Origin: Neonectria sp. B-13
Taxonomy: Eukaryota; Ascomycota; Sordariomycetes; Hypocreales; Nectriaceae
DNA: 64,000 nt
Direction of reading: 5' to 3'
Assembly: GCA_002682825.1 (NCBI GenBank)
Contig: NOKP01000012.1
Location: forward strand, 868,001-932,000
Position 1 is the stretch's first letter, and each line of letters starts with the position of its first letter. Made by a program: the position numbers and the translations under genes. The notes beneath the pieces were generated by a model. The model searched no databases. It was not told the DNA's origin and saw nothing but the letters and a program-made list of their open reading frames with translations. Shown in pieces: positions 1 through 33,719 of the stretch.

Positions 1-678
1 CATGCCCTCGGCGTCCATCGTTACGGGAACGATATTGACATTTTTCGGTCTAACCTGTGCGACTGGTGGCCCATATACAAACTCTTCCACTATCAAACCC
101 TCTCGGTTTTGAATGTCGTCCAAGTCTTGATCCCACGGGTTGAACAGAAGCTCAAACACCTTTGAGAGCCCATCCGCCGAACCACCGTCAATTATGACAT
201 CGGCGCCGCCTTCGTAGGATATGTTTGGATGTGTAGAGTGCAATAGCCTTCGCAACCACGCGTAGAGAGGCGGATAGCCTTGAGCGCTTCCGTATTGGAG
301 GGCAGTGCTCAAGTCAATCTTGTGCGCGACATTACCCTCTTGGGAGTATCGTGGAATGCGAATATGAAGGTTTGAGCCATCTGCAGATTCATCATCTGTC
401 TCATCGTTATTCGAGATAGAATGTTTTGTCGGCCGGTCCAGCGAGAGGTCCAGCGTGTTGAAGGGGAAAATGTCTGTGTGGGGCAGGCCTACGAGCAGAT
501 TTGGTCAACAACTTGAGCGATTGGTATTCGCCTTGTGTAGCATACCACCGGAAAAATTGCACATGCCCGGTACCACAAAATATCTGTAGTATTCCTTCAG
601 GGCATTTGGTCTTCTCGTTTTCGAAGCTTTCGAGAAATGGTGTGCCAGGTTAAACGGTTTTGTGCGCGTGTGAGACAT
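1..678 (-). CDS. PLP-dependent aminotransferase, class I/II (aromatic amino acid type), N-terminal part
   Basis: The gene runs off the left edge, so only about 207 residues are visible. Exon 1 is 546-678 and a 57-base intron (489-545) joins it to the second exon in phase; without this intron the frame hits a stop. The joined protein reads NFSGGLPHTDIFP, then YGSAQGYPPLYAWL and DGGSADGLSKVFELL. These are the substrate-loop and N-terminal PLP-fold blocks of fungal ARO8-like/2-aminoadipate-type aminotransferases. Such enzymes move an amino group between an amino acid and 2-oxoglutarate in the cytosol. The PLP lysine lies outside the window, so activity cannot be judged. It is divergent from the dioxygenase gene, with about 590 bases between the two starts. 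It may supply or remove an amino group in the neighbouring pathway (inference). Confidence 0.85.
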
Positions 679-1271
679 GTTTCGTTGTAGATGGGGAAGA
701 TGATGAAATGCAAGCCCAAGTGTTATTTGCTATAGACGACACTGGGTAGCTGAATAGGGTTTAATTGTTGAGTGCAAGGAATTGATCGGATTGAGGCTAT
801 TCTAGGTGGAGAGACCAGCAGGTCTGGGTTGTATCTAGTCCATGGGTGCCTCAGGCCACCACCTCTTAACATCAATAATAGTTTGTGTACGAAATATAGT
901 GGTTAATACCGGTACGGCACCGAAACATCGTGTATTACCCCGGCGGAGGTGTACTTGATTATTCAGCCGGCCATTGGTGGGGTCACGGAATATATTAAAG
1001 GATAACAAAAGTCCGATCCAAACCTTCATGCATGATGAGTAACACAGAAAAAAAAAATAGTATGTCGTTCCAGTTTTAATCGTAGCCTGTGGATATTGCA
1101 ACGCGCGACATAGTAGGGAGATATGTAAAGGGTATGCTAGGCCTTGGCCAGATCCCCTACATTTAAGGGACGGTGTCACTGTCGGTTTCCCAACGTTAAT
1201 CAACACCGTTCTTGACGTTGTCAACTCGATCTACCGCAGGTCCCAAAGATCTTCACCACCTTACATGCACA
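679..1271. other. Intergenic, divergent promoter region
   Basis: This spacer separates the divergent aminotransferase and dioxygenase starts. The small open frames in it have no recognisable domain. No clear regulatory motif was identified. Confidence 0.5.
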
Positions 1272-2388
1272 ATGGCTTCTGAAAAGCTCTTTGAAAACAT
1301 TCCTCCCTTTCCAGATGATATTCCCACTGCGTCCATTGCCAGCGTTTCGCTCGTTGGTCTTCGCACGGGGGACGAGGCCACCGCTCGAAACCTCCTGGAA
1401 GCATGCAAGACGTTGGGCTTCTTTCTGCTCGATTTACGCGGGGATGCGCTAGGTGAGACGTTGGTGGAGGAGATTGACCATCTCATGGGCGACGTTAGCA
1501 AAGAAGTCATGGGCCTGCCAGAGGATGTTAAGAGGCAATATCATGTCGATGTTCCCAGGAGTTTTGAAGGGTGAGTCTTATGCCTTCCTTTCCTTTGCAA
1601 CATTCTACCTTACACGTTGAAGTTTTAAACTGCGCGGTGTTGGAAAAACCGAGACCAACGAGCCAGACCGTTTCGAGTGGTTCAACATAGGTCAGGATGG
1701 CCTCACGGGAATCGGTCCCGTTCCGCCGCTTCCTCCCCTTGTGCAGACCCAACTCCCGCTCTTTACCTCATTCCTCAAGCACAACCAAGAGATAGCTGCA
1801 ACCATTCACACCACTCTCGCAACTCAGCTTGGCCTGCCTGCCGATACATTCACCTCAGTGAATCGCCCTACGGAATCTTCTCTTTCTCTTGTTCGCTTAT
1901 TGAAATTTGAAGCGAGCTCAAAAGCAGAGGATCTACGCACCGCCTTGCGTCACCATACAGATATCGGCGCAATCACCCTTCTGGTCAACGTGCTTGGTGG
2001 TCTACAGGTCCTTGCGCCAGGCCAATCGGCAACAGACCCAAAGGCGTGGCTTTGGGTTCGTCCACAGCCACGCCACTTGATTGTCAATCTAGGAGACGCC
2101 ATGGTGCAGTGGACTGGTGGGTTGCTTCGGAGTAATACGCATCGAGTGACTTATTCGCCCGGAGACCAGCGCTTTGTGGACCGGTACAGCATGGCCTATT
2201 TCTTAAGGCCTGAACGAAACGCAAGCATGAAAAGGCTAATAGGTCAGGGAGACGACGGCGATGCGGCAAACATGACGGCTTGGGAGTGGGAAACCAAGAA
2301 GACCATGTCGTTTATAACCGACGAAGCAGACGATGTCCTTGTCAACCGACGTGAAGTAAAGGGGGCAAAGCCAAACATTATGTCTTGA
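1272..2388 (+). CDS. 2-oxoglutarate/Fe(II)-dependent dioxygenase (isopenicillin-N-synthase-like fold)
   Basis: Two exons, 1272-1570 and 1623-2388, give 354 aa. The 52-base intron starts GTGAGT, and removing it restores the family block ending in PDRFEWFNI. The N-terminal DIOX_N region (residues about 20-150) is followed by the double-stranded beta-helix. The Fe(II) ligands are visible as H211 and D213 (HHTD) and H273 (SNTHRV). The 2-oxoglutarate-binding RxS is R287-Y-S289. Members of this family hydroxylate, desaturate or cyclise small molecules using O2 and 2-oxoglutarate. All catalytic residues are present, so it should be active. I chose the ATG at 1272 because it directly precedes the conserved start and follows a stop-containing leader. 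Its position beside the IPT and LOG genes makes a prenyl side-chain or amino-acid oxidation plausible, but the substrate is not determined by the sequence. Confidence 0.92.
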
Positions 2389-3019
2389 AATAAGATCTAG
2401 CTTTCTAGCTGTTAGTGCATATTTGAATACTAGTGACTGAAGAATCAAATCACGGACCTGGGTTGATGAGACTTTGTAATGCGTCACGAACAAATGCAAT
2501 CGAGTCGTAGAAAGCTCAATGAATGCAGATTAGTGACTGACAGGGCTCCTCAAAAGTGACCTGCAGTATCAAAATGCCGCAAACCAACAAGATCAACATG
2601 ATTAACTACTCGGGGGCGCTGTGTATGGGGATGCAGTTTGAATGAGCGAGCAGTGTTGTCTAATATTCATGGGGAGGTCCACAACCCAACGTCAATTATC
2701 CAGAGCCTCACGCGCCGGACTTTTTCAACTCATGTAACATCTCTATCCTCTGCTCCATGTTCCTCAATACAGCTTGTACAAGTGGAATTCATCCGAGATT
2801 ATCATCCCTGGGGTTTCTACAAATGGACACCAAGCTATAGGGCGACAACTTGACCCATGCTCGCCTCACTTGAGATCATGGCAGAGAAGAGGTACAAGAA
2901 GCCCTGTCGTTACCAAGGCAATAATGGCGTCATGGGCGGACCAAGGTCCGGCGCAGGCAGGTAGGTAAAGAAGCGTATGTTATCAATATCCAAATTCATC
3001 CCGACTTCGTAAAACGTAG
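2389..3019. other. Intergenic between convergent genes
   Basis: This is the 3' space between the dioxygenase and the IPT gene. Short open frames here look random. Nothing recognisable was seen. Confidence 0.5.
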
Positions 3020-3922
3020 CTATAGTCCGTTCCCATTACGCGCAGATGGAACCTCGGTTGTCTCCATGTATCGGACCACACTGGCTCCATAGTCCACCTT
3101 GAGAGGTGTCCCCCGTGTGCTCTCTCTCTCGGTATCTAATATCCACTCTTTGCACAGCCTGAGAGCTGGCATTTCAACATCCTGAGAGAAGGTCTGACGT
3201 GACACCACGTTGAAAACGTGGCAATGTCGCTGCATTCCTGACATTTCCGGAATGAGGCGAGACCACAACAGCTGTAGCTGTGTGCTGGCATAGTTCAGTG
3301 TGTTTTGTTTCATCAACTGCGTCCCATCTTGGAGTAGCTTTGCAGCCTCTTTGGTGCTTTCTGCAATACACCACGCGCGGAGTTCTGGGTAGCCGATTGA
3401 TTTCCAGGCACCAGTGCGGATAGAGTCGTTGTATCGACCGTAGTGTTTCTCCAGCTCGTAGAGATGCTTGACCTCTTTCAGAAGACCGTCTTTCAGCATT
3501 TGCTTAATGCGGTCATCGCAAAGGTTGCTAACAGTTGTTACATCCGAGTTCAGAACCATGACGAGAAGGTTCTGCTCCTTGATGAAAGGATGGAACAGAA
3601 GTGGCTCCATGAGAGACGTAGAGCCACCGCAGATGACAGGGACGCGACCTCGGTTGTGGATGGACTTGATGCTTTGGACAGCCTTCGTAATGAAGTCGAC
3701 AGGCTCTTCATTTGCATCCAAGTAATCCACCAAATGGTGGGGAACTCCTTCCATCTCTTCTGCGGTAACTTGTGCGGCCATGATAGGGCAATCGCGGTAT
3801 ACTTGGATACTGTCGACCGAGATTACCTCACCGTCGATGGCCTTTGCAACCTTGACGCTAAGCCGTGTTTTTCCAATACCCGTGGGCCCGATGATGGCAA
3901 CAATTGGAACAAGAGAGGACAT
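3020..3922 (-). CDS. Adenylate-type isopentenyltransferase (cytokinin synthase, IPT)
   Basis: A single exon of 300 aa. The P-loop GPTGIGKT is at residues 12-19, the substrate aspartate block DSIQVY at 37-42, and VPHHLVDYL around 60-68. The block at 98-108 reads CGGSTSLMEPL. This GGSxS form is typical of plant and bacterial adenylate IPTs, whereas MiaA/tRNA-IPTs read GGTGLY. The protein also lacks the C-terminal zinc finger of fungal tRNA-IPTs and is far shorter than them. The expected reaction is transfer of the dimethylallyl group from DMAPP to N6 of AMP/ADP/ATP, the first step of cytokinin formation. The LOG gene lies 538 bases upstream on the same strand and would carry out the next step. 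In Claviceps and Fusarium the two activities are fused in one protein; here they are separate. A tRNA-modifying role remains a minor alternative. Confidence 0.88.
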   Translation of the reverse strand: MSSLVPIVAIIGPTGIGKTRLSVKVAKAIDGEVISVDSIQVYRDCPIMAAQVTAEEMEGVPHHLVDYLDANEEPVDFITKAVQSIKSIHNRGRVPVICGGSTSLMEPLLFHPFIKEQNLLVMVLNSDVTTVSNLCDDRIKQMLKDGLLKEVKHLYELEKHYGRYNDSIRTGAWKSIGYPELRAWCIAESTKEAAKLLQDGTQLMKQNTLNYASTQLQLLWSRLIPEMSGMQRHCHVFNVVSRQTFSQDVEMPALRLCKEWILDTERESTRGTPLKVDYGASVVRYMETTEVPSARNGNGL

Positions 3923-4460
3923 TTTGAAGTGGTGGCTGTAGGGTAGGAAGTATGGGGAGAAGGTTTGTAAAGAGTGTTTAATCTAAGCCTGTTGTGGAAA
4001 GGGAAAGGAAGGTATGCTTTTATCCTGATATCAAGCTCTAGGTAAGGATAGTATGTAAGCAGAGATGTATTATCCGACCATCTGAATTAAGTTGTCTCTT
4101 ATTTTGCACACGAGGACTCCGATCGGTCAACTATCCCCCGGTGAATGTTCTGAAACCATGCCGGGCCGGGCCGCGATGCAACCCTTTGACAGTTGCCCAA
4201 GCACTCCGGAAAGTTTAAAAAGACTCGGAGTAATGTATGACTACCCTCCACATTGAAACTGAATCTGTCAACATTTTGAGTGAATGGGGCTTATAGATCA
4301 AGATAGTAGGAGTTGGTCATGCTTGTGCCCTCAACTAAAGCAAGGTGATAGCGACGATGCCGTTAGTTAACGAGCTTCAGATTTGTAGTCCACTGTTATG
4401 TAATTTATTGCTTGGCTACATGCTTCTTAACTACCGACATACTCAAACCAAGGGGAGGCT
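3923..4460. other. Intergenic, presumed IPT promoter
   Basis: Space between the LOG stop and the IPT start. It holds one exact TCGGAGTA octamer (4225-4232) and a near match, GACTCCGA at 4115-4122. Otherwise nothing is recognisable. Confidence 0.45.
4225..4232 (+). promoter_or_regulatory. TCGGAGTA octamer upstream of IPT
   Basis: Exact copy of an octamer that recurs in the LOG/gamma-synthase promoter. It lies about 300 bases upstream of the IPT start. The CGG core would fit a Zn2Cys6 regulator, which is inference only. Confidence 0.3.
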
Positions 4461-5174
4461 TCAAATGGCCAACGTCTTAGTATCCTTTGACCTCCAGTCA
4501 AGAAGATGCCTTCCAGTTGCCAACTTATACTCCTGAATCCTATTAACAACATCCTCTGGTGTGTTTGCAACACTGATGATGTTAGCAGTTCCCCTTGATA
4601 TAAATCCCTCCTGGACAGAATTCTCAATCCAAGCAAGCAAATGATCAAAGAAGCCACCGATGTTAAACAAGACAACCGGAAGATCATGAATGCCAAGCTG
4701 GTTCCATGTGACGACCTCGAATAACTCCTCAACGGTACCATAGCCGCCCGGCAATGCAACAAAGGCATCGGCCTCACTAGCCATGAAAGCCTTTCGCTCA
4801 TGCATACTGTGGACCACGGTTGTTTTTCCATATTCCACTACTTCTGGCTTGACCACTCCTCGCTCTGTTCTGATCAATGCTTCGGGAATCACGCCATGAA
4901 CCGCTTCTGGTCCAGATAACCGTACCAAATTCTTGGCGAGATTTCCCATGAGCCCAAGCGTACCGCCCCCGTAGATGAGAGACCACGAATGAGAATTCAT
5001 GGCCCCTGCAAGTGCTTCTGTCGCCTCTGCATATTTCGATGATACTCCTTGACTGGCACCTGCTGTCGAGGTAAGTAAAGGGATAGCTCATACTATCAAA
5101 ACGGACTCACCACAGAAGACACAGAGCGTAAACTTTTCACGGGCTACCGCAGTAGCGGTCATATTCTCAATCAT
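4461..5174 (-). CDS. LOG-type cytokinin riboside 5'-monophosphate phosphoribohydrolase
   Basis: Two exons, 5111-5174 and 4461-5059, separated by a 51-base intron, give 220 aa. The splice recreates the family start CVFCGASQG. The nucleotide-binding YGGG is at 51-54, MHERK at 107-111 and the diagnostic PGGYGTVEE at 125-133, followed by TWNQLGIHDLPV. These are the signature blocks of LOG proteins, once misannotated as lysine decarboxylases. The enzyme hydrolyses isopentenyladenosine-5'-monophosphate to the free base and ribose 5-phosphate. All catalytic residues (R of MHERK, E of the PGG motif) are present. Being next to an adenylate-type IPT strongly suggests de novo free cytokinin production. 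The start at 5174 is the first ATG of the exon; a second ATG three codons later is possible. Confidence 0.94.
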
Positions 5175-5965
5175 GATTGGAGACAAGAAAGTTTCAAGAA
5201 GAATCTGAATCGAATAAAGGCCAAATGCTCGTTTGAGTGCTGTATTGTTTGCCTGTCAATGTAGTAGATGGCTTTGCTAATTGAATATTTACAACCGAAT
5301 TTAAGTAAAAACTAAGTTTCAGACAGCTTCTTACGACCGATGCCTGAGGATTTGCACAATTGTATTCGATTTACTGAGATCCCACTGTGCTAATAAAAGA
5401 CAAGGTTCAATTTCTTTTTCGCCTTTATGTCAGGCGAGCTGCAGACGGACGGATCAGTAAAGTGTACTAGCTTATGGAGTCGGAGTATATTTGCAATCCG
5501 CGTGTTGATTATTAGTCCGTGCTTCTAATATGTTTGCGCCAGTCGAGCTGAATATTTACAGACACTAGTTTCATGACTTATAACAATACTCCGACAAGAC
5601 ATCCAGCGGGCTGTTTTCACTTGCATCGTTTTCCCCCCCGGGTACTGACTATCTACGGGCTAAACAGCACGGGACGACGTACTCCGACCGGACAATTAAT
5701 GTTGAGCTGCAATTCTTTTCTTACGAATGACTGACATGTAACGTCAACCAATTTGGGTTCGCACAAAGGTTTTCTTTCAATCCACTTACAACATAGGCTT
5801 TTGTCATAACTTCAAGTAAATGTGACGTTATATAACAGTACGCCTTAGACTGACCATGTGGTAGGGAAAAGACACCCCTATCTTCGTATTCAGTCTCACG
5901 CCTAAGGGACCTTTTCTGGACGTTGTATAAGATTTCTTCCGCATTTGTTTTCCAACTATAGCGAG
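5175..5965. promoter_or_regulatory. Divergent promoter between LOG and the gamma-synthase-like gene
   Basis: The 791-base spacer between two divergent starts carries three exact copies of the octamer TCGGAGTA or its complement: 5480-5487 (+), 5587-5594 (-) and 5680-5687 (-). Together with the copy before IPT, this suggests a shared regulator binding site. No coding sequence was seen. Confidence 0.4.
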
Positions 5966-7774
5966 ATGGCTATGGACGATTTTGAGCTTCGAGGCATTCC
6001 AGAACCAGATGAGATTGATACACCGTGGTCTCATCCTTTACCTCCGGCTCCCCACCATTCTATCACATCGCATATACCTACATGGAAGGCGCTAGTAAAG
6101 CTTTCGGAACGGGACCCTGTCCATCTTTCCAAAATCGTTAGCATCTACCCGCGTATTCTGCTTCACAAGGATTGTGTTCAAGTGAGTTGCTATTCTTGAA
6201 TCAACCAACCTTCCTGCTGACCATGGAAACCACTCTCTTAGCTTACTGAGGTGATCATAAAGCTCTTGGGACTAAACCCTGAGGGACACACATGTTTTCT
6301 GTTCCCAAGGCTGCAAGTGGCACAAGCATGCGTCAGCTACATTACTAGCCCCGACCGGACAGACGGCAAGGAGACTCTTGTCAATTCGACAGTGTCCATT
6401 CGGGCCTTGGAAAGCAGCACAATCAACAACGACAAGCTATACGTCTTCGCCGTGATGTTTCCGGTGGAAAAGCTGGCCCATGTCATGCCCTGGTGGTCGG
6501 ATACCGGCGTTGGAATTTCAAGCCGCTTTGCAGAACATATGCTCACAAACCTGGCCGGGCTTCAAGAGGTTCCTCTCGCTGCTGCACCTGTACTCAAAGG
6601 GCAGTTAGAAACACCTCATAGGGTGCTTCGTAAGCGAATCGCCTACCTTGTAGAGCGTGCTCCCGTTACGAATAGGGAAAAGAAAGTACAGCCCTCAGAC
6701 GTTTATCTTTTTCAGTCGGGTATGGCGGCTATCTACAACGTCCACCAGAACCTGCAACGCCTGGCAAAAAACAGCGAGTGCAAGAGCGTCATATTGGGCG
6801 TTTCTTTCTATGAAACCAGACATATCCTCGAGAAGTACGGCACTGGATTGGAGTTCTTTTCCAAAGGCACCGACGTACATGCACTCGAGCAATTCCTCAG
6901 GCAGGAAAAAGCCCAAGGGCGCCCCGTCTTGTCGCTCTGGACCGAATATCCAAGTAACCCACTGCTGTTCACCTCGAATCTCATCCATCTGCGCCGGCTG
7001 GCCGACGAACTAGGCTTCGTTCTTGTTGTCGATGAGACAATTGGCGGATTCTGTAACGTCGATATGCTTCCGGTTGCGGACATTATGGTCACCAGCTTGA
7101 CTAAAACCTTTAGTGGCTACGCCGATGTCATGGGGGGTAGCGTTGTCCTCAATCCGTCGAGTAAGATGTACAACGACTTCAAGCACCACTTTGATCAGGA
7201 ATACGTCAATGATCTGTACATTGGCGACGCAAGGGCCTTGAGACATAACAGCGAGGACTACCTCCACCGGTCCGCCATCATCAACTCCAATGCCAAGATG
7301 CTTACAGACTGGCTGTACAAGCGGTCGAAAGACGAACGCAGTAGCATTCAAGACGTGTTCTACCCTACTACCGCACATGCAGGAGCACAAGGTAACTATG
7401 ACATCTTCATGCGACTCCCTACAGTGGACTTCACGCCAGGCTACGGGTGTCTCTTCAGTATTGGATTCAAATCCCAAGAGAGCGCCGTCGCGTTTTACGA
7501 CAATCTTCACGTATACCACGGACCCCATCTAGGCGCGCACAGGACACTTGCTTTGGGGTACACGTATCTTATATACGGTGCCGAGGAAGCATTGAAGATG
7601 GCTGATTCGGGGATCTCCATAGCCCAAATCAGGGTTTCAGTCGGGTTGGAGGATTCGAAGACTTTATTACACGTTTTCAAGTATGCGGTCATGAAAGCGG
7701 ACGAGGCTGCGAAGGGTCAGCCAGCGACGGGTGTCAATGGAACTGGCAATGGGGCAAATGGTCAGGGAAGATAA
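5966..7774 (+). CDS. Cystathionine gamma-synthase-like PLP enzyme (gamma-replacement family)
   Basis: Exons 5966-6181 and 6242-7774 encode 582 aa. The intron starts GTGAGT and ends TTAG, and joining keeps the frame. The N-terminal 110 residues match the extra segment of fungal Str2/Met-7-type cystathionine gamma-synthases (SHIPTWKALV, YPRILLH). The catalytic part shows FQSGMAAIYN, TEYPSNPLL, VVDETIGGF and the PLP lysine K360 in SLTKTFSG. The family replaces the gamma substituent of an activated homoserine with a nucleophile. In primary metabolism the nucleophile is cysteine; in loline biosynthesis LolC uses proline nitrogen. The neighbouring aspartokinase-like, IPT and LOG genes argue for a secondary role, with adenine or an amine as the possible acceptor (inference). 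The C-terminus ends in a Gly/Asn-rich tail. It shares its promoter with LOG. Confidence 0.9.
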
Positions 7775-9692
7775 AATGTCCTGCTTGAGTTCAGACTCCT
7801 AGTCTTAGGCCTCGTGTGAGAATGGTACATATTCCTAATCGTCTGCGTTATTGAAGAGGAGTATGTTCTCTTCTCGTTCAACGCTCTCATGAAGTATTGT
7901 CGTTGAGGGCTGCCAAGTTAGCATTGTAAGCTGAGTAATGAAGAGGACTGATGGAATGGTAGTTGCCCCTCCGCTTCCCGCCTTGTTTCTGTCGTCTGGG
8001 TAAGTGAGGAACTCGGTTTCTGTCTGAGGCCCTGGAATGGCGAACTTGATTCGCTGATTGAAATACCATTTGTTTTCTATGTAGACTAGCTGGCCTGTCG
8101 ATAAAGTGCCTTCCCTGTTAGGCGATGAAGAGCCTCTGTATCCGCTGCCGTTGACTCCTCCTGGTACTTAAAGAAGTGCCTAACGAGGTTGATTGCGTGA
8201 ATTGCCTGAACAGCAGTCAGTGGCGGATTGAGATCAATGAACTCAATATTTTCCTCTGCTTCGTTTTCAACGACACAATGTACGTCATCCTCGGTAAGAA
8301 ACTGACAATTTGTCCTCGGTTGAAACTATGATGTGGCTTCCATAAAGAATTTTTTCAACGCGAGGCCACTGGCCCGTTTCAATCCAAGTACTGGCATTTA
8401 GAGTTACGTCAAGATAGGTGTGTTGATTGCTTAACCATTTAAAAGCAGCCAACTTTGAGAGAGGGCGGTTGTAGAGTGCCTGGTACCACCTATAACAAGC
8501 GTCAATGGATGGTTGTTCGGATTGACTCCGAAGGTAACCTTGAAGAGCTCTCCTCCCCTCCTTGGTTATGGCCCGGCGAGGCCGCTTTAGCTTCTGACTA
8601 TGCTCGGGTGGCATCCTCACTCATTCTCATTTCCGCTATCAAACCACCGACTGGATGTAAAGGAGAATTCCGGACGAATCGGCCATCCAAAACGCTGACC
8701 TTGCTCGAATTTGTCTTCCTCGGGTTTCCCGGAGCATCAACATGTGTACAGTCTGAATCCGGGGAGAACTTAGCAATTGAATTGACTTCCGCTCCAACCC
8801 GTCAATTACCTTGAATGTCTAATCCCTACTTCATTGTACCTCGGATCAACAGGTATTGTAGTAGTCGACATTGTTCTCGGACAATTTTTACCCCGTAATC
8901 AACAAATCAGTCCCGTCTTCCGCCTAGAGACCTTCGGCGCCGAGACAAGACAGCTAACGCTTCGGACCGGTTCTGCGTGACGTGACGTAAGAAGGATCGA
9001 CAAACTTGGGGATTGCCGGGCCTACTCAAATTTTCCATGTTGTATTGATACGCCACATGCCGGTACTCCTCCAACGCGACCAAGTGCTCCGGAACAACTT
9101 CAATATCAACACGACCGTATAAGATGCTAAGCCTACTTTCTCCGCCACATTTCATTATTACTGGGGTCTGCAGCCGAAACGTAGTTTACTTTGCAGCCAT
9201 CGGCTTTTAATGGTTAGTGCTGACAGGGTGGGATCAAAGGTATTCCGGAAGGACACCCGCACGCAGTAAGGTTTTATGTAGCACTCCACTCGTATAAATT
9301 AATTTATGGAACGTCCACTGTCCGTGCTACGTAAACAGGCATGCTTGAAGCCCACTGAGATGCACTCACGCCGTCTTTCCAAATTACAAACGCGCGTCAC
9401 CGGTATTTATCTTGTCCGTTATTTCTGCTCGGAAAAATTAAGAACAAATCTCTCTACAGGTCATTCAGGTTTTAGAGGTTTCTGTCTGACCACGGCGGCA
9501 CTGTGATTAGCTATACGAGGTCTAGCATGGCTTTGACCGCCGCTTTGCATTGTCGTACTTTCGCAAATAGTGAGATAACTGCTCGTTTTGTATAACATAG
9601 GTAGACGAATTCAAAAGAGTGTGACAGTTCACTCCAACCATCTGGCAGCTGAGAATCATTCTATCACTTCATCTACCTCCCAGGCACACACC
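7775..9692. other. Long intergenic region containing a transposon relic
   Basis: Apart from the transposase relic at 8084-8620, no gene was recognised. The last 400 bases are presumably the promoter of the FAD oxidoreductase. Other open frames here are short and without domains. Confidence 0.5.
8084..8620 (-). mobile_element. Fot1/pogo-like transposase relic (internal deletion derivative)
   Basis: Read on the minus strand, 8620-8285 encodes a helix-turn-helix segment of the CENP-B/pogo transposase type: RRAITKEGRRALQGY, then PSIDACYRWYQ and a YLD ending. After a frameshift near 8330 a second frame continues with LTEDDVHCVVENEAEE and a short acidic tail to a stop near 8087. These look like the two ends of a Fot1-type transposase with the DDE catalytic core missing. 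No terminal inverted repeats could be assigned by eye. The relic lies between two genes of the putative cluster and cannot be active. Confidence 0.55.
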
Positions 9693-11146
9693 ATGGCTTT
9701 GGTAAAAATTCTCTTTATTGCTCTAGGGGCAGCGGCAGAAGCCACTAAGTATGGAAACTCTGCTATCGACACGGACGTTGTTATCATAGGCGGCGGGGGT
9801 TCTGGGGCTTATGCAGCTGTGCGACTACGAGAGGATTTTGGCAAGAAGATCGTAGTGGTTGAGAAAGAAAATCGCTTGGTATGACAATCCTTTTGGAATA
9901 TTGAACCTGTATCAGTGACAGGATAGCTCATGATCATTTATAGGGTGGCCATACGCAAGCCTGGTATGATCCGGTGACCAGAGAAGCATTCGACTACGGT
10001 GTTGAGGTCTTTACGAACATTACCGCATCTACCGACTTCTTTGCCCGTTTCAATATTCCCGTCAGGACCCCCGATTTTGGTCAAACACAAACACTGTATG
10101 CGGACTTTGGGGATGGCAAGCCGGTCAATTATACACCTCCCAGTAGCGAGGAAGTCGCCGCCGCAATGGGCAGATATCGTGATCAGTGGCACAAGTACGG
10201 AAGCCTGATGCTGCCCACGAGCTTGGGCTTTCCCGCTGGTGACGATATACCAGAAGATCTCCTGCTGACATGGGACGAGTTCGCGCGCAAGTACAATCTA
10301 GAAGCCGCAAGTTCGATGATCTGGAATACTGTTGTCGTCGACTTGAAGACTGCGCTCATGATTGATGTGTGGAAGGCGTACTACCCTACCCTAACAGGTT
10401 TTCAGCCAGCCTCGGGCGACAACTCTGAAATCTACCAGAAGGCCGCGCAGCTATTAGGCAACGATGTCATGTATGAGAGCGAGGTAGTCTCGGCCAAAAG
10501 ATCGAATCATGGAGTGCGGCTTCGTGTGAAGAGCAAGGATGGGAACACGACCGAAATCAACGCTAAGCGACTCTTAGTTTCCATTGGACCGGAAACGTTG
10601 AAGCCAGAAGTCTTTGACTTAGACGGTCAAGAGCTAGCTATTCTCTCGTCAACCACGGGCAATCGCTACTACACAGGCATTGTATCACACCCATCCTTGC
10701 CGGCGCAGGTGGTTGCCAACACGGTCCCGGAAGCTGTGGCCGCCAACTACCTCGCCTATCCTGCTGTCCCGTTTTTGGCCGATTTCAAGTACAAAGGGAA
10801 CTCATCAACGGGACCTGTGTACCGTACTCTGGTGGTTGTCCCAAGCGACACGCAACTCGAGGACGCAAAGAGCCTTGTGCGCAGCTCCCTGCAGAACCTT
10901 ATGGATGCCGGGACGGTCCCCGCGGGAGATGTTAATCAGCTGGACTTTAAAGCCTTTGACGATCATGGAATTATGTACCGACGCTGGTCCGTTGATCAGC
11001 TGCGCGGTGGCATTGTGTCCCAGGCAAATGCGCTGCAGGGTCTTCGGTCAACTTGGTACACGGGAGCTTACTGGATGAATAACAATGCTGCCATGCTGTG
11101 GAACACGACAGATGCAATCCTGCCAAGGATGCTGGAGGACATTTAG
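9693..11146 (+). CDS. Secretory-pathway FAD-dependent amine-oxidase-like oxidoreductase
   Basis: Two exons, 9693-9878 and 9944-11146, give 462 aa. The protein begins with a hydrophobic signal-like segment (MALVKILFIALGAAAEA) followed by the FAD Rossmann motif VVIIGGGGSGAYAA. The splice joins ENRL to GGHTQAWYD, the conserved second FAD block. The overall layout resembles fungal flavoproteins annotated as beta-cyclopiazonate dehydrogenase (CpaO) or monoamine-oxidase-like. The C-terminal block ending in SALW-like residues (NNNAAMLWN) is typical. Such enzymes oxidise C-N bonds and can trigger cyclisation of alkaloids. The signal peptide suggests action in the secretory lumen or outside the cell. 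The substrate is unknown; the nearby IPT, LOG and PLP genes make an amine or amino-acid-derived intermediate likely (inference). Confidence 0.85.
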
Positions 11147-11864
11147 ATTGCTATCTTTAGCTTTGTTTCTCCAATTTTCAATTCTCTGTCTAGTCAGCAC
11201 GCGGCCGCAAAGGTCCCCGAGAGCAGCACAAGATAATCCTTTCCCACCTTTAGATAGAACGATCAAGAGTCTTTCAACCATATGATCTAGTGTGCAGCCT
11301 ACGGCCCTCACAATCCTTTAAGCTAACCCTGGGATTACACTCAGGTGATGGAAGCTTGTCGATGCTGACCCCTGAGCCATGCAGCTTTCAGTAGACTCCT
11401 TACGATCAATTTCCTTCTAGCTAGCTGGATCATTGAGCCTGTACCCGCAGAATTATCTCATAGCTGTGGACGTCGTTCAGCTTACCTGCTCCCACTCCTC
11501 ATCCTTTCAAGTAGGTCTACGATCGCCGCATTGAGTTACATCATTTTGCATCTTGCCGTGGACTCTTGGTATGGCACAAATATCGGTCATTATGGGTTTA
11601 GTAACAGCAAGAACAGGATACTACCGATCGGCCATTTTGAGAGGATGGGCATTGGCAGTGTCCGCATTTGGTCTCTTGTATTTGTCAACATAACCAGACT
11701 AATCAGACATGAGTTTGTGGCAGTGCCTGGGCGTGTCTGTGAGCAACGCTGCCTTCTCTACCCAATGTCGTAAATATCCAACAGACTTCGATAAGCTTCC
11801 AAACCAAGTCCAGGACTGATTCTTGCAGACTCCATAGGTTATCTCCGAAAGACTCAACCTGTGG
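11147..11864. other. Intergenic between convergent genes
   Basis: No recognisable coding sequence or RNA gene was seen. The open frames here overlap at random and lack motifs. Confidence 0.5.
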
Positions 11865-12799
11865 CTAAGAACGACCGGGATTTTGACCCCAAACCCAATG
11901 GAAGTTGGTACCAAGTTCAACCCCGTTCTCAGTTTCTTTAGTGACTGCCTCCACCAGAGAATTGACCTTTTCCTCCGTCAGATCAGGACCCATAACTCGA
12001 AGCTTCAAAAGACCATTGAGATTCTGTGGCATGTAAGTCAAGGCCATCTTCGTTATGATATCAATCAGATCTGGCCTTCCCAAAGTAACGAAAACCTTTT
12101 CATCAACATACTCCAAGCCGGCTTGCCGGAATTGATACGGGAGGAGGACCGGACATCTAAGACTAATTTAGCAGTTTGTTCTGGAAGCATATGAATACCA
12201 TGGTTGGCTTTGGGGTTGGTAAAAAGCCCGCAACACACTTACTTCGGATCACGTCCCAGTTTGACAGCCGCTTCAGACTCTATCCTTTTCCACTCATGAA
12301 ACGCTTCCGAGTATGGATTGCTGGCGTATCCGTAGGCCCCAATCTCAGACCAAAACAGGTACCCGCCCGGCTTGAGCAGTGTCTTCAGGTTCCGCGCCGC
12401 CAGCAGCCATTCATCCTTCTTCAGTGCCGCGTAGAGCAATTTCACATGCACCAGATCATATTTGCCTAACATCTCGTCCGGGAAGGGTTCCAAGACATTG
12501 CCAAGTTGCAGCTTGACGTTCGTGGGCAGTGAGGCTGGATCGGGGAACTTGCTCGAATCCATATCGAAGCCATCCAGCTCGGCTCGCTCCGGAAGCTTCG
12601 GTGCGAGTTCTTTGAGAAAGATGCCGCTGCCCGTAGCCGCATCGGCGACTTTGGGAGCTGGGATTCTTTTCAGATGTTGCCAAATGACATCTGGAAATTC
12701 GGCTCCCATAATGGCTTTGAGAACACCATGCTGAAAATCGAGGCGCTCCCGCTCTTTGTTGGCGTCGCCATGGTTTAGCGTATAGACCGAAGACGACAT
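11865..12799 (-). CDS. SAM-dependent methyltransferase, class I
   Basis: Two exons, 12243-12799 and 11865-12156, with an 86-base intron (GTAAGT...TTAG), give 282 aa. SAM motif I reads VADAATGSGIFLKEL near residues 50-64. It is followed by an acidic LDGFDMDSSKFP block, by KYDLVHVKLLYA, and by LKPGGYLFWSEIG (motif III). The C-terminal exon carries a helical cap seen in fungal secondary-metabolite methyltransferases. The protein should transfer a methyl group from SAM to a small molecule in the cytosol; whether to O, N or C cannot be read from the sequence. It is tail-to-tail with the FAD oxidoreductase and on the same strand as the aspartokinase-like gene. The start at 12799 is the only ATG before the conserved N-terminus. 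Confidence 0.85.
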
Positions 12800-13259
12800 T
12801 TCGAACGTTTTGAGATTACCGTCTCTGAGCCTAATGGTCGAACCACGTCTCTTTCTCAGATATAGGCCAAATCGAGAAATGATTTATATTCAATTCTGAA
12901 CCCGCCCACGATGCCTGGAACCCGATGATCAGATCCACCTGTTGAAGATAGGCACTACATACCTTGTCACTGCTCATAACGAGCCGCGGATCAGTGGGTT
13001 GTGACTGTAAGTATTTTCCGTGTTACCGAGAGGTGGACCCCTCCGCCTAATCCTTTCAAGTCGAGGCCCTACTATTCGCCCATGGCAGTTTGCAACAAAG
13101 AAACCGGGAAAACATTTATTTAAGGTTCCAGAAATCATGTCATAGCATTCAATACCTTATTATTACCCCGCCAATACTAGTCTGTAACGAGGAGACCGAC
13201 CGGAAAAACATTTATTTAGAACTTGTGTCATATCGCCTATACTAGTCTATACTGATGTT
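12800..13259. other. Intergenic with a diverged local duplication
   Basis: Two similar segments, around 13101-13175 and 13199-13253, share the block ending AAAACATTTATTTA and later an ATACTAGTCT block. This looks like an old tandem duplication of roughly 95 bases. No gene was recognised. Confidence 0.4.
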
Positions 13260-14030
13260 TCTCACCCATTTATCATGCAATAGAATAAACCGTCCCAGAC
13301 CGTGGTACTGCAAGAAGCGCCAGCCCACATCATGATAAAGTTCGACCTGGGAGAGTCAACGTAAAGTAAGGGCGGAGTACTCCAAACCGTCGTGATGTCA
13401 GAGAAAAGACTGCTGGTTCCACCGTTCCACTTCTTCGATAGGAAGAGTCTATCGCGGCCGTCTGCTTCCTTGCTAGATCGATAAGTCTTGGCTGCAGCTC
13501 ACTCGTAGCCTGTGGCAAAGATCAAACAGTCTATGCTAGACTTCTTTTCGTTTGTTATGGCTTCTTTGTCTGCAAGTCGGTTTGCCCCCTTGCCTTGCGC
13601 CTCAACGAGCTCAAAGTCTGGCCAGTCAAATGCCTGAAGGTACTCGTCGTGAAAGTATGAATGTTTTCAAAACTGCTTGTAGTATGGTTTGAGCTTCTTA
13701 GCAGTCTGGGGGTCCTTGACGAGATTTGCAATGCGTCGGCGGATTTCCTCAATCTTTTCAAAGTCTAGGGGCTGTTTTCTTTCCTTCATAAGTGTAGCTG
13801 CCTTATATCCGCCGCCTCTCCTGAGAGCGTATAACTTCCAAAGGATATCGTCCCAGGCGTTGCATTAGGTACTTTTCCTGATAATTACCGTTGATATTAA
13901 AATCGAACTTGTCCATGCGTTGTTGCTGCCATGTTCCAGTCAAGGGTGCTACCCACTCTGGGTCTGTGGGCTGGTTATTCCGTACGTTGACTCAGGCTGG
14001 CGTTCGTCGGAACTTTCGATCTCAGTATCG
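13260..14030 (-). pseudogene. Baeyer-Villiger monooxygenase relic
   Basis: Minus-strand translation in shifting frames gives the C-terminal half of a flavoprotein Baeyer-Villiger monooxygenase. The pieces are RNNQPTDPEWV, NAWDDILWKLYALRRGGGY, KPYYKQF, HSYFHDEYLQAF, the conserved IDCLIFATGYE, and GRDRLFLSKKWNGGTSSLF. An in-frame TGA follows KPYYKQF, further frameshifts interrupt the rest, and the N-terminal FAD-binding half is not recognisable. The gene is dead. In life it would have inserted oxygen next to a ketone using NADPH and FAD. Its place between the methyltransferase and the aspartokinase-like gene suggests it was once a tailoring enzyme of the same cluster (inference). Confidence 0.75.
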
Positions 14031-14590
14031 GCGTCACAAAATTGCCGTTCTTTTCTAAGACAAGATTCTCCTCAGTCCGGCCATCTCGCATGGAGTAGAC
14101 TAGGATCGAGCCCAAACTCGGTCGGCACTTTCAGGATGAAATACGGTCATTCATAGCAATTCTTCACAGGTGTAGGGTGTGGGATACTTAGGAATAAGGC
14201 GGTATTCGACGGGAAAGACTTGGATACTAGTTTGAGCCACCACCTGCAATGTGTCTGCCACCTTTAACTTTCAACGTCCTCAGTCCGCCTCTTCCTCTTC
14301 ATATTGTCTATATTGACAGCTAAAAAAGGGGAAAAGATACGGGACACCGGATCAGGCGATTAGAATACGGTGTATACGACTTGGTACCATCTGAATGCAG
14401 CCATTGAATCCATTTTGCCACATCCACCTTTAAAAATAGTTTCTATAACCGGTGGGCAGGTCTTGGTCCCGGGCCCCGCACCTCAGCCTATCCCCCTCGG
14501 ATAGGAAAGTCAGTGGACATTGAGAAGTAGCCGCGGGCCACCTCTCATCACACGACGCCCTTCTTGGCTGAGTCGCTTGCATTCGTCAAC
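14031..14590. other. Intergenic, possible hydrolase-like scrap
   Basis: On the minus strand near 14170-14260 a short stretch reads VEYRLIPKYPTPY, like the alpha/beta-hydrolase YRLAPE block. It is too short and broken to call. The rest holds nothing recognisable. Confidence 0.3.
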
Positions 14591-16398
14591 TCATTCCAGA
14601 GAAGGAAAAAACTTGGCATGCAATATGTTTAGTGCTCTATTCGCATCACGTTTGTTAATCACACAAGATATAGCAATCTCGCTCGCTCCTATTCACTATT
14701 AGATGAGCTTGATAGCAGGCACTGAAGTTGAAATCTGCGCGTACCTTGAGATATCATCTCAATATTAATGTCGTTCGCTCCGAGAACGCTGAAGAATGTT
14801 CCCGAGATTCCAACTATGTTCTTCAGCTGATGGCCAATAAGACTGATAATAGTCATGTCTGGCACAATATCCACATTTCCGTACTCATTCAACTCTTCAA
14901 CGGCGTATTGAAGCTGTTCATCAGTACTCAACGGTCTTGCGTCCAAGTTAAGCACCATAGACACATGGACCTCAGAAGAGGAGCCCAAATCGACGGACAG
15001 ATGCCATTTTTCCAGGATTCTGAAAATGTTCATGAGAAACCCATGTGAACGGGTTTGCTTGTTCGAATGGACGTTAAGTACCAGGATTCGATCCTTGATG
15101 ATGACAGCCGTGGGTCGCTTTGAGTGGCTTGCGGGAGCGAAGGCAAAGGTTGATTGTTCCTGGACAAGACCTTTGCAGTCGGCGATGAGCGTTCCAGGCG
15201 TTCCAAAACCACTTGGGGCCTCTATCACGTCATCCAGACAAATCATTGTGCCACTGCCGTGTGGGTTCATAACGCTTTTAATGCGGATGGGAATGCACGC
15301 CCGGATCACCTGGTTTATGATGAAGGCTTCGATGTCCTCGGAACTCTGAGATGCCAATTGCGTTGCCTCAGATGGTGTAACTGAATGGATGAGTCGAGCA
15401 TCTGGAACTCTTCGAGGATCCGCAGTGAAGAAGCCGTCGACCTCGGTCCAGATCTGCAGCTCTCTGGCGCCAACATCAGCAGCAACAAGAGCAGCACACA
15501 AATCTGTGAAACTTTTTCCAATTGCATCGGTGAGACCTCCTGGTACGACTTTAAAAAAGCTAGTCATGACTGGGACCCTTTTGCCGCACGCGACTACCTC
15601 TTGCCTAAAGGCTGAAGAGAGGTCCCCAGGGACGACATCACTAAGATCGATATATTGCGCATCGACCCCTCGATCCTGCAATAAGGCCGCCACGAAGATG
15701 CAACTGAGATTCTCCACTTTGCCAATGATCCTATCCTCTACGGAATTGCTAGCCTCCCCAAGATATTGCACATATTCCAAGATCTTGATCAGGTCGTCGC
15801 ATTCCGCATTAACGAGTTTGGTGTAATTAGCTAGGACAGCTAGGTTGTGGAGGAGGGGCTTCGCAGGTTCAAGGTGGTCGATTTGAATCCCCTTGACAAT
15901 GGCAACATAACTTCTGGATTTGTGTTGCACTGCTTCCCGAGCAGCACACAGCAGTCTGGTCACCCGCTCATTGCTAGGCAAGGTTATAGAGAATACCAGT
16001 AGATTTAGAACTGGTTTAACTTACTGATTCGTAATCCCTCCCATTCCGGTGTTGCCGCTCTTCGCTGAGCAGACAATGGCAACACAATGACTCTTCAGTT
16101 CATGCCTAACACATGTCAGTTTCGCTCAACCATCACAGGTATACACTTTACTAATATTAACTGACTGGATGATTTGAATTATGTCCTCGGCGAGGTCGAT
16201 CACCCTTGCTCCACTAAATCCAAGGACCACAAAAGGACCTTGGAGATCCTTCTCTTCCCGTTGAGGCGCAATCTTTTCCGAGAGGTACGGGTGGTCGTTG
16301 GCAAGAGTCTGTGTACCAACCGTTTGCGAGGCGTTGAAGAAGCTCATTGCGACAAGTGGGGCGGTAGAATTAAACGCGGAAGCAGCGAAGCTGGACAT
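14591..16398 (-). CDS. Aspartokinase paralogue with altered ATP-site motif (LolA/Fub3-like context)
   Basis: Four exons, 16145-16398, 16025-16105, 14745-15973 and 14591-14688, give about 553 aa; the 39-base first intron is the least certain. The last intron (14689-14744) restores the ACT-domain ending (QGASEIAISCVIN). Strong matches to yeast Hom3 include KSFTDLCAALVAADV, EVDGFFTADPRRVPDAR and two ACT domains (SSEVHVSM, GTFFSVLGANDINIEMISQG). The N-terminal catalytic motif KFGGTS is replaced by GFSGAR at residues 60-65, so the invariant lysine is missing. Normal members phosphorylate aspartate, the first step to homoserine, and are inhibited by threonine. This one may have lost kinase activity or have become a regulatory or scaffold protein. 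Aspartokinase paralogues occur in the loline and fusaric-acid clusters, where homoserine derivatives are consumed. Confidence 0.85.
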
Positions 16399-21431: not shown

Positions 21432-22693
21432 TCATTTGCTACAGAGGTTTGCCGGAAACGAGGTCTTGCAGTTGTTGCACTTGACCACGTTGCCCTTGCC
21501 TGTAGTGTTGACAAAGATGTCGAAGTCGTTGTTGCGGAAAGTATTCCGAATGACGACGTTGTATGATGAGACCGCCTTTCGCTTGAGAACACGGCATGAG
21601 AGAGCAAGGTTGGGGTCAGTTTGGGGGCATTCATCATCGAAGATAAGAACACCGACGCCCTGATTCTTCTGTCCCTCGAAGAGGTTATCCGAGACTTTGG
21701 TGCCAATCGCGCCATCCAGGATGATTCCCGAGGATCCAGGGCAGTGAGGATTCGACGGGCCAACATGGTTGTGGCGGATCTTGGCGCCTTTGACCCCGGG
21801 ATCGACATAGATGGCGAGGCAGCAATTCTTCACTTTGTTGTATTGAACTTCGGCGCCATTGGTCTGGACACAGAGACCGATACCGTAGTTGGAAACTCGG
21901 TTCTTGGTGACAAAAACGTCCGAGAAATTGTCCATGCATACACCAGGTATATTAAGACCGGTCAATACCGTTGATGAGACTTCGTTGTCGGAGATCAACG
22001 TCTTGTACGAGCCAGCGGTGAGGCATCCATACTTTCCACCATCGGTGAGCTTGTTCTTGGTGATGCGAGCATTCTTGGCACCGACAATAGCAATGTTGAT
22101 GCCGGAGAACTTCCGCACCTCGAAGCCGGTCACCGAAACATCCTTGACGGGCCTAGCCACTGAGAGGACCTTTCGGTGCTCGACCACGAAAGGAGCCAGC
22201 TTGATTCCTTTGCCTGTTACGCAGATACCTGCCTCCGTTTTGGGACCACTCAGACCTGAGCACCGGTTCTTGACGGCCTTCTTAGGAGGAACCAGGACGG
22301 CGCCTTTCCCGATGAGTTCGATGCCATCTTTGTGGATGGTGAGCTGCTCGGCGTATATGCCGGCTTCAACGACGATGCAATCGCCGGGACTGGCTTTGTC
22401 AATGGCGCGCTGGATGCTCCTGTGGGATCTGACGTAAATGGTGTGGTGGGGGTCATCGTGGTCATTGTCATATCCGTAGTCGTTACCCTCGTAGTCGTCC
22501 TTGTCGTGCGCACAGCATTGCTTGTCCTTCCACTGACATTTCTTGGCCCGAGCTATGGAAGTCAGCAGCTGTCCCTTTTGGAAGATCAGGGAGCATACAC
22601 ACCTAGCAACCCGGTATCGTCGGGGCTTGAGAGAGGAGAAGCGGCAACAGTGCCGAAAAGGACAAGTCCCGCAAGTGCCGAGATACACTTCAT
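21432..22693 (-). CDS. Secreted right-handed parallel beta-helix protein
   Basis: Two exons, 22603-22693 and 21432-22552, give 403 aa. Exon 1 encodes a signal peptide (MKCISALAGLVLFGTVAAS) and the splice joins it to ARAKKCQWKDKQCC. A cysteine-, Asp- and His-rich linker follows at about residues 35-70. The rest is a parallel beta-helix (PbH1 repeats): SIQRAIDKASPGDCIVVEAG, then repeated turns with NKL, NEV, NRVSN and NHVGPS asparagines, and a final NTFRNNDFDIFVN. Such folds occur in pectate lyases, C5-epimerases and NosD-like proteins acting on polysaccharides. I see no pectate-lyase catalytic signature, so the substrate is open. The many paired cysteines fit an extracellular, disulfide-stabilised enzyme. 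Confidence 0.85.
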
Positions 22694-24119
22694 GGTGAGG
22701 AGTTAAAAGAGTAATGACGGTGCTAGAGTATGCTCAAGTCATGTAGATGCAGTGCTTGGGGGTTTGGAACTTCCGGAGGAGGAGGGGGATTTATATAGCA
22801 ATGCCCACTACCTTCTCTCAAGCCTGCCCACAGCAGGTCAGCCCTGCATGGAGGGTACAAGGCCCAGGTTGCCAACGCGAAGTCCAGACTCTCAGCCCAA
22901 GTTCTGCTGCTGCTACCTGAATTGGCAATCCGGGACCGATGGCTGCCAGCGGGTAGAGGCCCTAGTGTCGGATCGCAGGTCAGCCGCTTCAAAATGGTGT
23001 GCGGCAATGGGTGCTAATGACGCTTACAACCAGGCCGAATGATTTAATATCGGCGAAATGCGTGTTGTGGCAAGCCTTTTTCGGTCATTGAAGACGTTGA
23101 TTTGTTCTACCCCTGGGTGGTGCGTTGGATGTTGAAGGTGTAGACGCCATGGCTGAAGAGGCTTACGGATATGATAGACTCAACGGTGATCCAGTGTTTC
23201 GGGCGGCCTTATAAATTCAAGGGCAAAGGACAAAGCAGACAAAAAGGAGAACGCAGAGGCGAATCAAGTAACTCGAGGGGTGGCGGGATTGGTCTGCGTC
23301 GGGATCAATTATTGAGATTGCAAGTTCAGAGTTTAGGTCCAAGTGTTAGTGCCATCTCCACATCGTGCCCCGTCACGATGAGTAAATGAGGGGAAGTTGA
23401 GGAGATAAAAGGCGGCGAGAAAGATATTTGATTGGTCCCTCGATACGAAAATCTAGAGGTATAACGTCTTTTATGTCGCTAAGATGAAACAAGGCTTAAT
23501 TAAGGGAGACCGAAGAAACCTTCTGTACCACGATGGCAACCTCCCCCAATACGCCACCATGCATCACTGCTTGTTTATTACCTGTTTTTAATCGACCATC
23601 TCCTCTTTTCCCCCAACTGCTGACTTCCGGCAGCAACTATTCGAGAAGCTGTGATATGTCAGTTCTCGTATGCCATTGGTTCGATCACTTGCGCCATGCC
23701 CTAGATCGAGAGTCTAGAATTGAAGTTTCATTAGCTGCAGGAGCTGAACTCGGCACGGCCCACGCTAAGGGGCTCTGTAGTCTATGCAGCCAACTCCATA
23801 ATGCCACCAGGCATGTTACCATCGCATGGCTACGGGGTAGTTGACAGTGATACGGCATGACATGAACGTGGCCGATGCCATCGAAATCCCTAGTGACAGT
23901 CCCAGGCCATCCCGTCCGGTTGTTGAGGCTATTGTCCTATGCCGATAAAGATCCCTAGTTCACATGCAGAAAGAGGTGACACGCTCGCAATGGGCGGAGT
24001 GCCCCCGGCTTTTTGGAACGGCTCTACTGGCGTTTCAAACCTGTCCTCCGGCAGCAAACTTTCTATCGATAGAGTTAGTGGAAATTAATGTGTTACGCCG
24101 CCCCCATCGTTGCTTGAGC
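22694..24119. other. Intergenic region
   Basis: The first part is the promoter of the beta-helix gene. No domain-bearing frame, RNA gene or repeat was recognised. Confidence 0.5.
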
Positions 24120-32359: not shown

Positions 32360-33719
32360 CTAAACAACTTGAAGGATAACCTTGCCAAAATGCTGCTGGT
32401 TCCATAGATACTCAAAAGCTTCTCGAGCTTCCGCCAAACTAAAAAACCGTCTATCTAGCACAGGATGAATGTCATTAGCTTTAATAGCACGATTCATATC
32501 TTCAAATTGGAGTCTTGAGCCGACTGCTATTCCTCGCACGGTGCAGGAACCCATGACTGTCTCGAGGAATGTTGGCTCCTTTGTGTCACCAGGCGAGGTG
32601 AACCCGCTGATCGAACCAACCATCGAGATCAAGCCATCAAGCTTCAGAGCAGTGAGAGCCTTCCAATGGGGTAAGTTAATTAGTTAATTGAGTCTTGAAG
32701 AGGGGTCTGTTGAGTCGTGCACAAGAACCTTACCTGTCTCAGAGTCTTTGGACCCCCAACCTCGACAACAAGAGAGACCCCCTCGCCGTTGGGTGTCATA
32801 CCCCTTGCGAGCTGGCCCCATTCGGGGTTTTCCTTGTAGTTAATCACGAAGTCGGCGCCAAGGTCTCTGAGCCGTTTAGCCTTCTCGTCAGATGATGTAG
32901 TTGCTATGACCTTTGCACCAGCGGACTTGGCAAACTTAGATGACATTAGTCTCAACACGTGAAGCCTTGTTTGCTTGGGTCGACAACTGCGTACCTGAAT
33001 AGCAAAACTGCTAACACCGCCTGTGCCCTCGGTAAGAACCGTGTCGCCTGGCTTCAGTGCCCTTCCTTCGAGACCATAGAGGGCGCTCCAAGCGGTCAAT
33101 GCAGCGCACGGCAGAGATGCAGCTTCCAAGAGGTTGAGATTTCCCGGGACATTGACGAGGCCTTGTTCCGAAAATGCGCCATACTCTCTCAAGACACCAT
33201 GAAGGGAGCTCCCGAGAGCGCTGTCGCGACCCTTTGCGTCAAGGGGTCCTGCGAGGTGATCCTGGTGGAATATGGTCGCCACCCGATCGCCGATTTGAAA
33301 TCGGCTCACGCCAGAGCCGACGGCTACAACGACACCAGCTCCATCAGACAATGGCACAATATTGTCTTGGTGCGGGAATGGGTATAGCCCCTAATGTCAT
33401 AGTCAGGAGTCTGGTGAGAAAGAGAACTTGTGTTTGCAAGGAGGATCAGGTGATGGAGGTAGGAGGAATTGGGGCTAGCTTATTACCTTTGCTATGAGCA
33501 GGTCACGGAAGTTCAACGAGACAGCATGAACTAACGCATATTTGTCAGTCTCTGCAAAGTGTGCTGAAAGGCTAGGTGGATGTTAATGCCCGTACTTTGA
33601 ACCAGGACATCGCGATCGCCAACATGCGGGATTGGAGCTTCCGTCTCAAATTCGAGGGAGTCGAAGCCGCCGCTGCCGCTGGCGCGCACTACCCACTGCT
33701 TCTGAGTCTGGGGAATCAT
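32360..33719 (-). CDS. Medium-chain (zinc-type family) NAD(P)-dependent alcohol dehydrogenase
   Basis: Five exons: 33596-33719, 33487-33530, 32995-33390, 32734-32934 and 32360-32659, giving 354 aa. The second exon is only 44 bases and supplies AVSLNFRDLLIAK, the conserved substrate-domain block. The third exon has VPLSDGAGVVVAVGSGV and VATIFHQ. The cofactor site follows: VLTEGTGGVSSFAIQ joined across an intron to FAKSAGAKVIAT. The C-terminal exon ends HFGKVILQVV, typical of the AdhP-like group. The cluster of cysteines for a structural zinc is not evident, so this may be a zinc-independent member. It would reduce or oxidise an alcohol or enone with NAD(P)H. It lies on the same strand as the FAD monooxygenase, separated by about 1.1 kb. 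Confidence 0.9.

Follow-up and report, generated by a model that had tools for sequence, protein, structure and literature searches.

Cytokinins joined to alanine or homoalanine through endocyclic nitrogens are known, with lupinic acid and discadenine described in the available part of PMC7913349, which also names N6-isopentenyladenine (iP) as the best substrate of the lupin-seed enzyme. In Dictyostelium, iP is known to receive an aminocarboxypropyl group in a reaction that depends on S-adenosylmethionine (SAM), according to the accessible portions of PMC10491745 and PMC7316887, and fungal fusions of an isopentenyltransferase (IPT) with LOG, clustered with a cytochrome P450, are already on record in the part of PMC7913349 at hand. 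Here we describe a 64 kb window (the whole stretch of DNA analysed, a piece of contig C20, minus strand, in a genome of 60.9 Mb in 123 contigs), in which an IPT, a LOG and a cystathionine-gamma-synthase-like enzyme (CGS) dependent on pyridoxal phosphate (PLP) lie side by side, all three intact. We tentatively read them as a unit that would make iP and add an aminocarboxypropyl group to it, giving a discadenine-like conjugate, and we place the chance of this slightly below even. The host is taken to be a fungus, as its spliced genes and their relatives suggest. Gene models were spliced by hand and domains assigned from Pfam profiles, and the three genes are as follows.

3017..3922, minus strand: IPT, adenylate-type isopentenyltransferase; single exon, 301 codons; PF01715/PF01745.
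4458..5174, minus strand: LOG, cytokinin riboside-monophosphate phosphoribohydrolase; exons 5111-5174 and 4458-5062, 221 aa; PF03641, 134.5 bits.
5966..7774, plus strand: CGS, PLP-dependent cystathionine-gamma-synthase-like enzyme; exons 5966-6181 and 6242-7774, 582 aa; PF01053.

IPT and LOG are two genes, each with its own start and stop, and the fusion is absent here. When eight rows are aligned, the tRNA-type ones carry a long insertion after the GGST motif that is missing from the window IPT and from a Claviceps IPT-LOG protein (first 285 residues used). The tRNA-IPT encoded in this genome further has a C-terminal extension with zinc-finger-like cysteines and histidines, judged by eye, and the window IPT has no counterpart of it. 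The window IPT retains the P-loop and DSxQ motifs. Because the insertion is missing we judged a tRNA-modifying role unlikely; apart from the window gene, the one IPT found in this genome is of the tRNA type (contig C61, first exon piece left out). The best solved relative of LOG is 5ajt, a LONELY GUY phosphoribohydrolase (173 bits). Both proteins belong to characterised families, and jointly they should yield iP. Of the 107 cytochrome P450 matches listed (92 of 295 candidates scored), none is located in the window.

The linkage of IPT and CGS recurs in other fungi. With the protein encoded by CGS exon 2, 1027 proteins were matched among 7994 candidates scored, and with the IPT protein 283 were matched; the best 120 of each were examined. 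These two sets come largely from the same, unrelated fungi, and both genes form narrow clades, the CGS search giving 14 relatives at 59-96% identity and a remainder mostly at 42-53%. The CGS clade has 13 database members (P0001-P0012 and P0014), P0013 (about 60% identical) being left out because it falls outside the 14-row clade in the tree. Nine of the 13 have an IPT-clade partner on a contig of identical printed size, and these contigs belong to Neonectria punicea, Fusarium sp. NRRL 66182, F. albosuccineum, F. beomiforme, Fusarium sp. DS 682, Colletotrichum orchidophilum, C. salicis and Pyricularia pennisetigena, with one further contig. The locus tags of IPT and CGS are exactly two apart in all five pairs that could be compared:

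Neonectria punicea: QQX98_009520/009522.
Fusarium sp. NRRL 66182: F66182_7736/7734.
Colletotrichum salicis: CSAL01_10600/10598.
Pyricularia pennisetigena: PpBr36_10098/10100.
Fusarium sp. DS 682: IL306_001271/001269 (the matched IPT is annotated as partial, 183 aa).

Tags two apart leave space for one gene, the position that LOG holds in the window. Pairwise IPT and CGS distances over ten loci (the window and the nine others) correlate with r 0.81, and none of 20,000 label permutations gave a value as high, although shared species history contributes to this correlation. Since the linkage recurs, the grouping is more than chance. The association of cytokinin genes with a gamma-synthase-like gene, which had been proposed from the window alone, is thus borne out by size-matched contigs, tags, trees and distance correlation; scattered genes with no co-occurrence, which the sequence-only reading had named as evidence against itself, are not what we find for IPT and CGS.

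Trees were quick maximum-likelihood reconstructions with SH-aLRT (approximate likelihood-ratio test) support only, and long branches were flagged. The window CGS falls within a 14-row clade (SH-aLRT 100, stem 0.44) and the window IPT within a 17-row clade (SH-aLRT 99); in the IPT tree the window IPT and the Claviceps-type IPT-LOG proteins share one 38-row group (SH-aLRT 99). In the CGS tree six rows (the window, Neonectria, Diaporthe and three others) are grouped with support 89 and join Colletotrichum (support 98), away from every Fusarium row. Neonectria and Fusarium belong to the same family. The base of the clade in the IPT tree is unresolved, and the closest rows to the window by path are one other row, Neonectria, two others and Diaporthe. 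This placement suggests, short of proof, that the IPT-LOG-CGS unit was transferred between fungi.

Several observations weigh against a single recurrent and transferred unit. Identical printed contig size is a strong sign of a single contig, not proof of one, and LOG as the middle gene elsewhere would follow from tag numbering. Four of the 13 clade CGSs (P0001, P0002, P0008, P0014) have no size-matched IPT partner, and seven of the 16 database clade IPTs (P0121, P0123, P0125, P0132, P0133, P0134, P0135) have no CGS partner, the near full-length IPT of Pyricularia sp. CBS 133598 among them. Pyricularia is also placed differently by the two trees, as sister to the rest in the CGS tree and with Fusarium in the IPT tree. 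Short clade IPTs (P0132, P0134 and P0135, 204-222 aa, from Fusarium redolens, Colletotrichum somersetense and C. zoysiae) stand without a clade CGS among the matches listed, and may be remnants of a decaying unit or else incompletely modelled genes.

We then consider the enzyme on which the predicted conjugation would depend. CGS exon-2 residues K288 and D264 are present in every one of the 14 clade rows and of the 107 other relatives, and by homology would be the PLP lysine and the aspartate that contacts the ring nitrogen. Tyr190 is fixed throughout the clade (14/14), the other relatives having His in 98 of 107. The adjoining F189 aligns with BesB F231. A Tyr at this position of CGS-family enzymes stacks on PLP; here it is Phe in all 14 clade rows and in 105 of the 107 others, and canonical gamma-replacement is therefore not to be assumed. 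Within the same column, CndF and the genome's own copies C76 and C45 have Tyr, and BesB and the genome's C1 copy have Phe. The large subfamily with Phe at 189, to which those 105 listed relatives outside the clade belong, is often labelled cystathionine gamma-synthase, and some of these labels may consequently be wrong. The nearest solved relatives of CGS are CndF and BesB, with CndF (PDB 8zif) closest in both sequence and fold; the fold match takes in the N-terminal part, with 28% identity over 437 residues. The match of Fub7 is far weaker (36 bits vs 159 for CndF). A PDB title names PLP, homoserine and ethyl acetoacetate as present in CndF crystals. A bacterial origin of CGS was not adopted. 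The scan of genome contigs kept 80 of 300 relatives, the best segments of which cover parts of the query at 22-44% identity, and a viral scan for CGS relatives gave none.

A route can be proposed from homology and architecture, in which IPT would prenylate AMP using dimethylallyl diphosphate (DMAPP) to isopentenyladenosine monophosphate, from which LOG would free the base iP. The PLP enzyme may then make a vinylglycine-ketimine from an activated homoserine, O-acetyl-homoserine being the most likely donor and SAM a possible one, and attach the four-carbon amino acid at one of the ring nitrogens of iP. That iP is the acceptor, that an activated homoserine or SAM is the donor and that the purine ring is N-alkylated are each predictions, and the product would be a 3-amino-3-carboxypropyl cytokinin, discadenine itself or one of its positional isomers. 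Since primary metabolism would supply the C4 donor, there would be no need for a degenerate aspartokinase homologue further along the window. An aminocarboxypropyl cytokinin, the product type put forward in the sequence-only reading, thus appears to remain the best reading of the three genes. Besides the Phe at position 189, two aspects of known chemistry count against it. CndF couples carbon nucleophiles, forming C-C and not C-N bonds. The discadenine of Dictyostelium is made from SAM, and its synthase gene is given as unidentified in the accessible part of PMC7316887.

In a different outcome, the unit would make a cytokinin and CGS would work in that pathway on another nucleophile or to another end, be it a C-C bond of the CndF type, an elimination of the BesB type, or an amino acid that is afterwards joined to another molecule. 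The identity of the closest solved relatives is in keeping with this, as is the Phe that CGS shares with BesB in place of the usual stacking Tyr, and to our knowledge neither CndF nor BesB alkylates nitrogen. Nonetheless, of IPT and aspartokinase, the two genes compared, IPT (with LOG presumed between) is the sole recurring partner of CGS, its joint product with LOG is iP, and no conserved separate gene that would make another acceptor emerged from this comparison. We regard this outcome as somewhat unlikely.

That CGS instead feeds sulfur amino acid or SAM precursors, for a linked methyltransferase or for growth, while IPT and LOG make ordinary cytokinins, we consider improbable. The family is indeed cystathionine-gamma-synthase-like (PF01053), and a methyltransferase lies about 4 kb away. 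However, the clade is diverged (stem 0.44, SH-aLRT 100) and has an active-site residue of its own; it is patchy in distribution and tied to IPT, and other family members exist in the genome. At least three such members, 35-40% identical to the window CGS, were found. The sequence-only reading had allowed that CGS might group with housekeeping methionine enzymes and lack a second copy; it is instead a diverged copy beside these others, and on those two grounds we rejected a housekeeping role.

A larger assembly had been suggested for the first 16 kb of the window, in which aspartokinase and gamma-synthase together feed a homoserine ester and all of the neighbours are tailoring enzymes. Most of the genes named in that proposal are present, the supported core of IPT, LOG and CGS being smaller than the 16 kb cluster. 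The other features, of which the aminotransferase, dioxygenase, FAD oxidoreductase and methyltransferase likewise gave intact spliced models, are:

1..678, minus strand: aminotransferase, class I, N-terminal part; 567 aa in total, reaching about 1.1 kb past position 1; PF00155 (Aminotran_1_2), 26.5 bits; gene model.
1272..2388, plus strand: 2-oxoglutarate-Fe(II) dioxygenase; two exons, 354 aa; PF03171; PDB relatives at most 66 bits; gene model.
8285..8620, minus strand: HTH_ABP1 fragment; PF18107; broken frames at 7.8-9.2 kb, between CGS and the gene for the flavin adenine dinucleotide (FAD) enzyme.
9693..11146, plus strand: FAD oxidoreductase, beta-cyclopiazonate-dehydrogenase-like; 462 aa; PDB 9vex 168.7 bits, 9kp8 168 bits; gene model.
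11863..12799, minus strand: class I SAM methyltransferase; two exons, 282 aa; PF13489, 30.7 bits; gene model.
14689..16398, minus strand: degenerate aspartokinase paralogue; exons 16166-16398, 16025-16105 and 14689-15973, 532 aa; PF00696/ACT_9.

In favour of the larger assembly, every gene lies within about 18 kb, and IPT (91% identity), CGS (96%) and aspartokinase (91%) each have a match among 'lgn' proteins, although these are on three different contigs that are not shown to be one organism. The aspartokinase itself speaks against it. The frame is open (with the intron 1 donor selected by eye; comparisons were made with the 532-aa protein so obtained), with the conserved catalytic motifs gone: departures at near-invariant columns number 45 of 197, compared with 5/200, 0/199 and 2/199 in three control rows, and the lysine of KFGGTSV, the arginine of GRGYTD and the YGSEVIHP block are lost, the three motifs being replaced by LGFSGARV, GKSFTD and QSSEDIEA respectively. 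With so many near-invariant columns lost, we judged a functional aspartokinase unlikely. A relative 91% identical shares nearly all of the same losses where aligned (42 of 191 columns) and also has an open frame, so that a non-catalytic role is possible and the homologue is better regarded as a candidate pseudoenzyme than as a recent pseudogene. Among the best 120 of 1833 aspartokinase matches, relatives at 91% and 62% are followed by others at about 55% and lower, the named ones belonging mostly to Dothideomycetes, and by eye none is on a contig size-matched to the nine IPT-CGS contigs, though weaker homologues may rank below these 120. The aspartokinase half of the earlier proposal is thus not supported, the homologue being degenerate and showing, within those 120, neither link to nor co-occurrence with the core, and we judged it to lie outside the IPT-LOG-CGS unit.

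The region is also split by the HTH_ABP1 fragment, which is presumably transposase-like and may mark the right edge of the unit; from its position between CGS and the FAD gene, the genes to the right may not belong. The nearest solved relative of the FAD enzyme is beta-cyclopiazonate dehydrogenase (168.7 bits), with no Pfam match for its exon 2, and for the methyltransferase no relative in the PDB reaches E 0.001. At 13.3-14.2 kb, where a dead Baeyer-Villiger monooxygenase had been named, the reading frames are all short and broken by stops. Taken together, we think it quite improbable that the whole 16 kb acts as one pathway. A chance grouping with no shared pathway is scarcely credible, as it is strongly contradicted for IPT and CGS by their recurrent linkage and by the constant interval of their tags in every comparable pair.

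Beyond the aminotransferase, about 4.9-6.5 kb to the left of window position 1, is an adenosine-deaminase-like gene (L004:4871-6514; PF08451 and PF00962 on two frames), a purine enzyme close to the cytokinin genes. Domains of a D-isomer-specific 2-hydroxyacid dehydrogenase (L004:3086-4235) and a class II aldolase (L004:1688-2116) lie between the deaminase and the aminotransferase. Another product type considered was an eritadenine-like compound, a C4 acid carried on adenine, for which the aminotransferase, a D-2-hydroxyacid dehydrogenase and the dioxygenase would be used. Further to the right, the window contains:

21435-22733: right-handed beta-helix protein.
32683-33390: zinc-type alcohol dehydrogenase.
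42933-44381: M14 zinc carboxypeptidase.

In all compared stretches of contig C20 (50 kb, 10 kb at each of two further places, and 9,999 bases beside the centre) the sequence is its own exact mirror image, with the exception of about 300 central bases that include a 100-N gap. Mirrored P450 pairs are present on ten other contigs (C36, C38, C50, C54, C57, C69, C70, C72, C74 and C105). From the two observations together, the second copy of the cluster is probably an assembly artefact, and a systematic one. A recent duplication of the cluster was not accepted, since the mirror points to such an artefact, although a real inverted duplication is conceivable.

No published description of an IPT-LOG-gamma-synthase unit was found in the open-access library searched, which omits most subscription papers. 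The broader proposal is that fungi hold a horizontally spread unit of this kind that builds an amino-acid-conjugated cytokinin, in which a PLP enzyme would place a C4 unit derived from homoserine on a nitrogen of the purine; we advance it with reserve, its likelihood being clearly short of even. If true, it would provide a genetically defined route to a discadenine-type compound, independent of the SAM-dependent one of Dictyostelium, and we know of no earlier genetically defined route. The product could be new to fungi, and the recurrent combination of cytokinin genes with a gamma-synthase-like gene offers a concrete, easily expressed candidate for such chemistry. Several of the genera concerned are known for plant-associated species, and some fungi may make a modified cytokinin.

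Set beside known systems, the window resembles those for fusaric acid (Fub3/Fub7) and loline (LolA/LolC), which have an aspartokinase homologue near a gamma-synthase-family enzyme; it differs from them in that the aspartokinase here is degenerate and, among the matches listed, unlinked to the core. CndF shares the PLP lysine and the aspartate with CGS and has Tyr-Ser where CGS has Phe189-Tyr190. The lupin-seed enzyme uses O-acetylserine and PLP, and differs from the enzyme proposed here in being a plant enzyme that handles a three-carbon amino acid. As far as the available part of PMC7913349 describes it, the lupin reaction is alike in joining an amino acid, by a side-chain carbon, to an endocyclic cytokinin nitrogen. 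The IPT-LOG proteins of Claviceps purpurea and Fusarium are alike in placing an adenylate-type IPT with a LOG in a filamentous fungus, but according to the same part of PMC7913349 they are fused and clustered with a P450, whereas in the window the genes are separate and a gamma-synthase is linked instead. The closest parallel in predicted product type, a 3-amino-3-carboxypropyl iP, is the discadenine synthase of Dictyostelium, which in the accessible text uses SAM.

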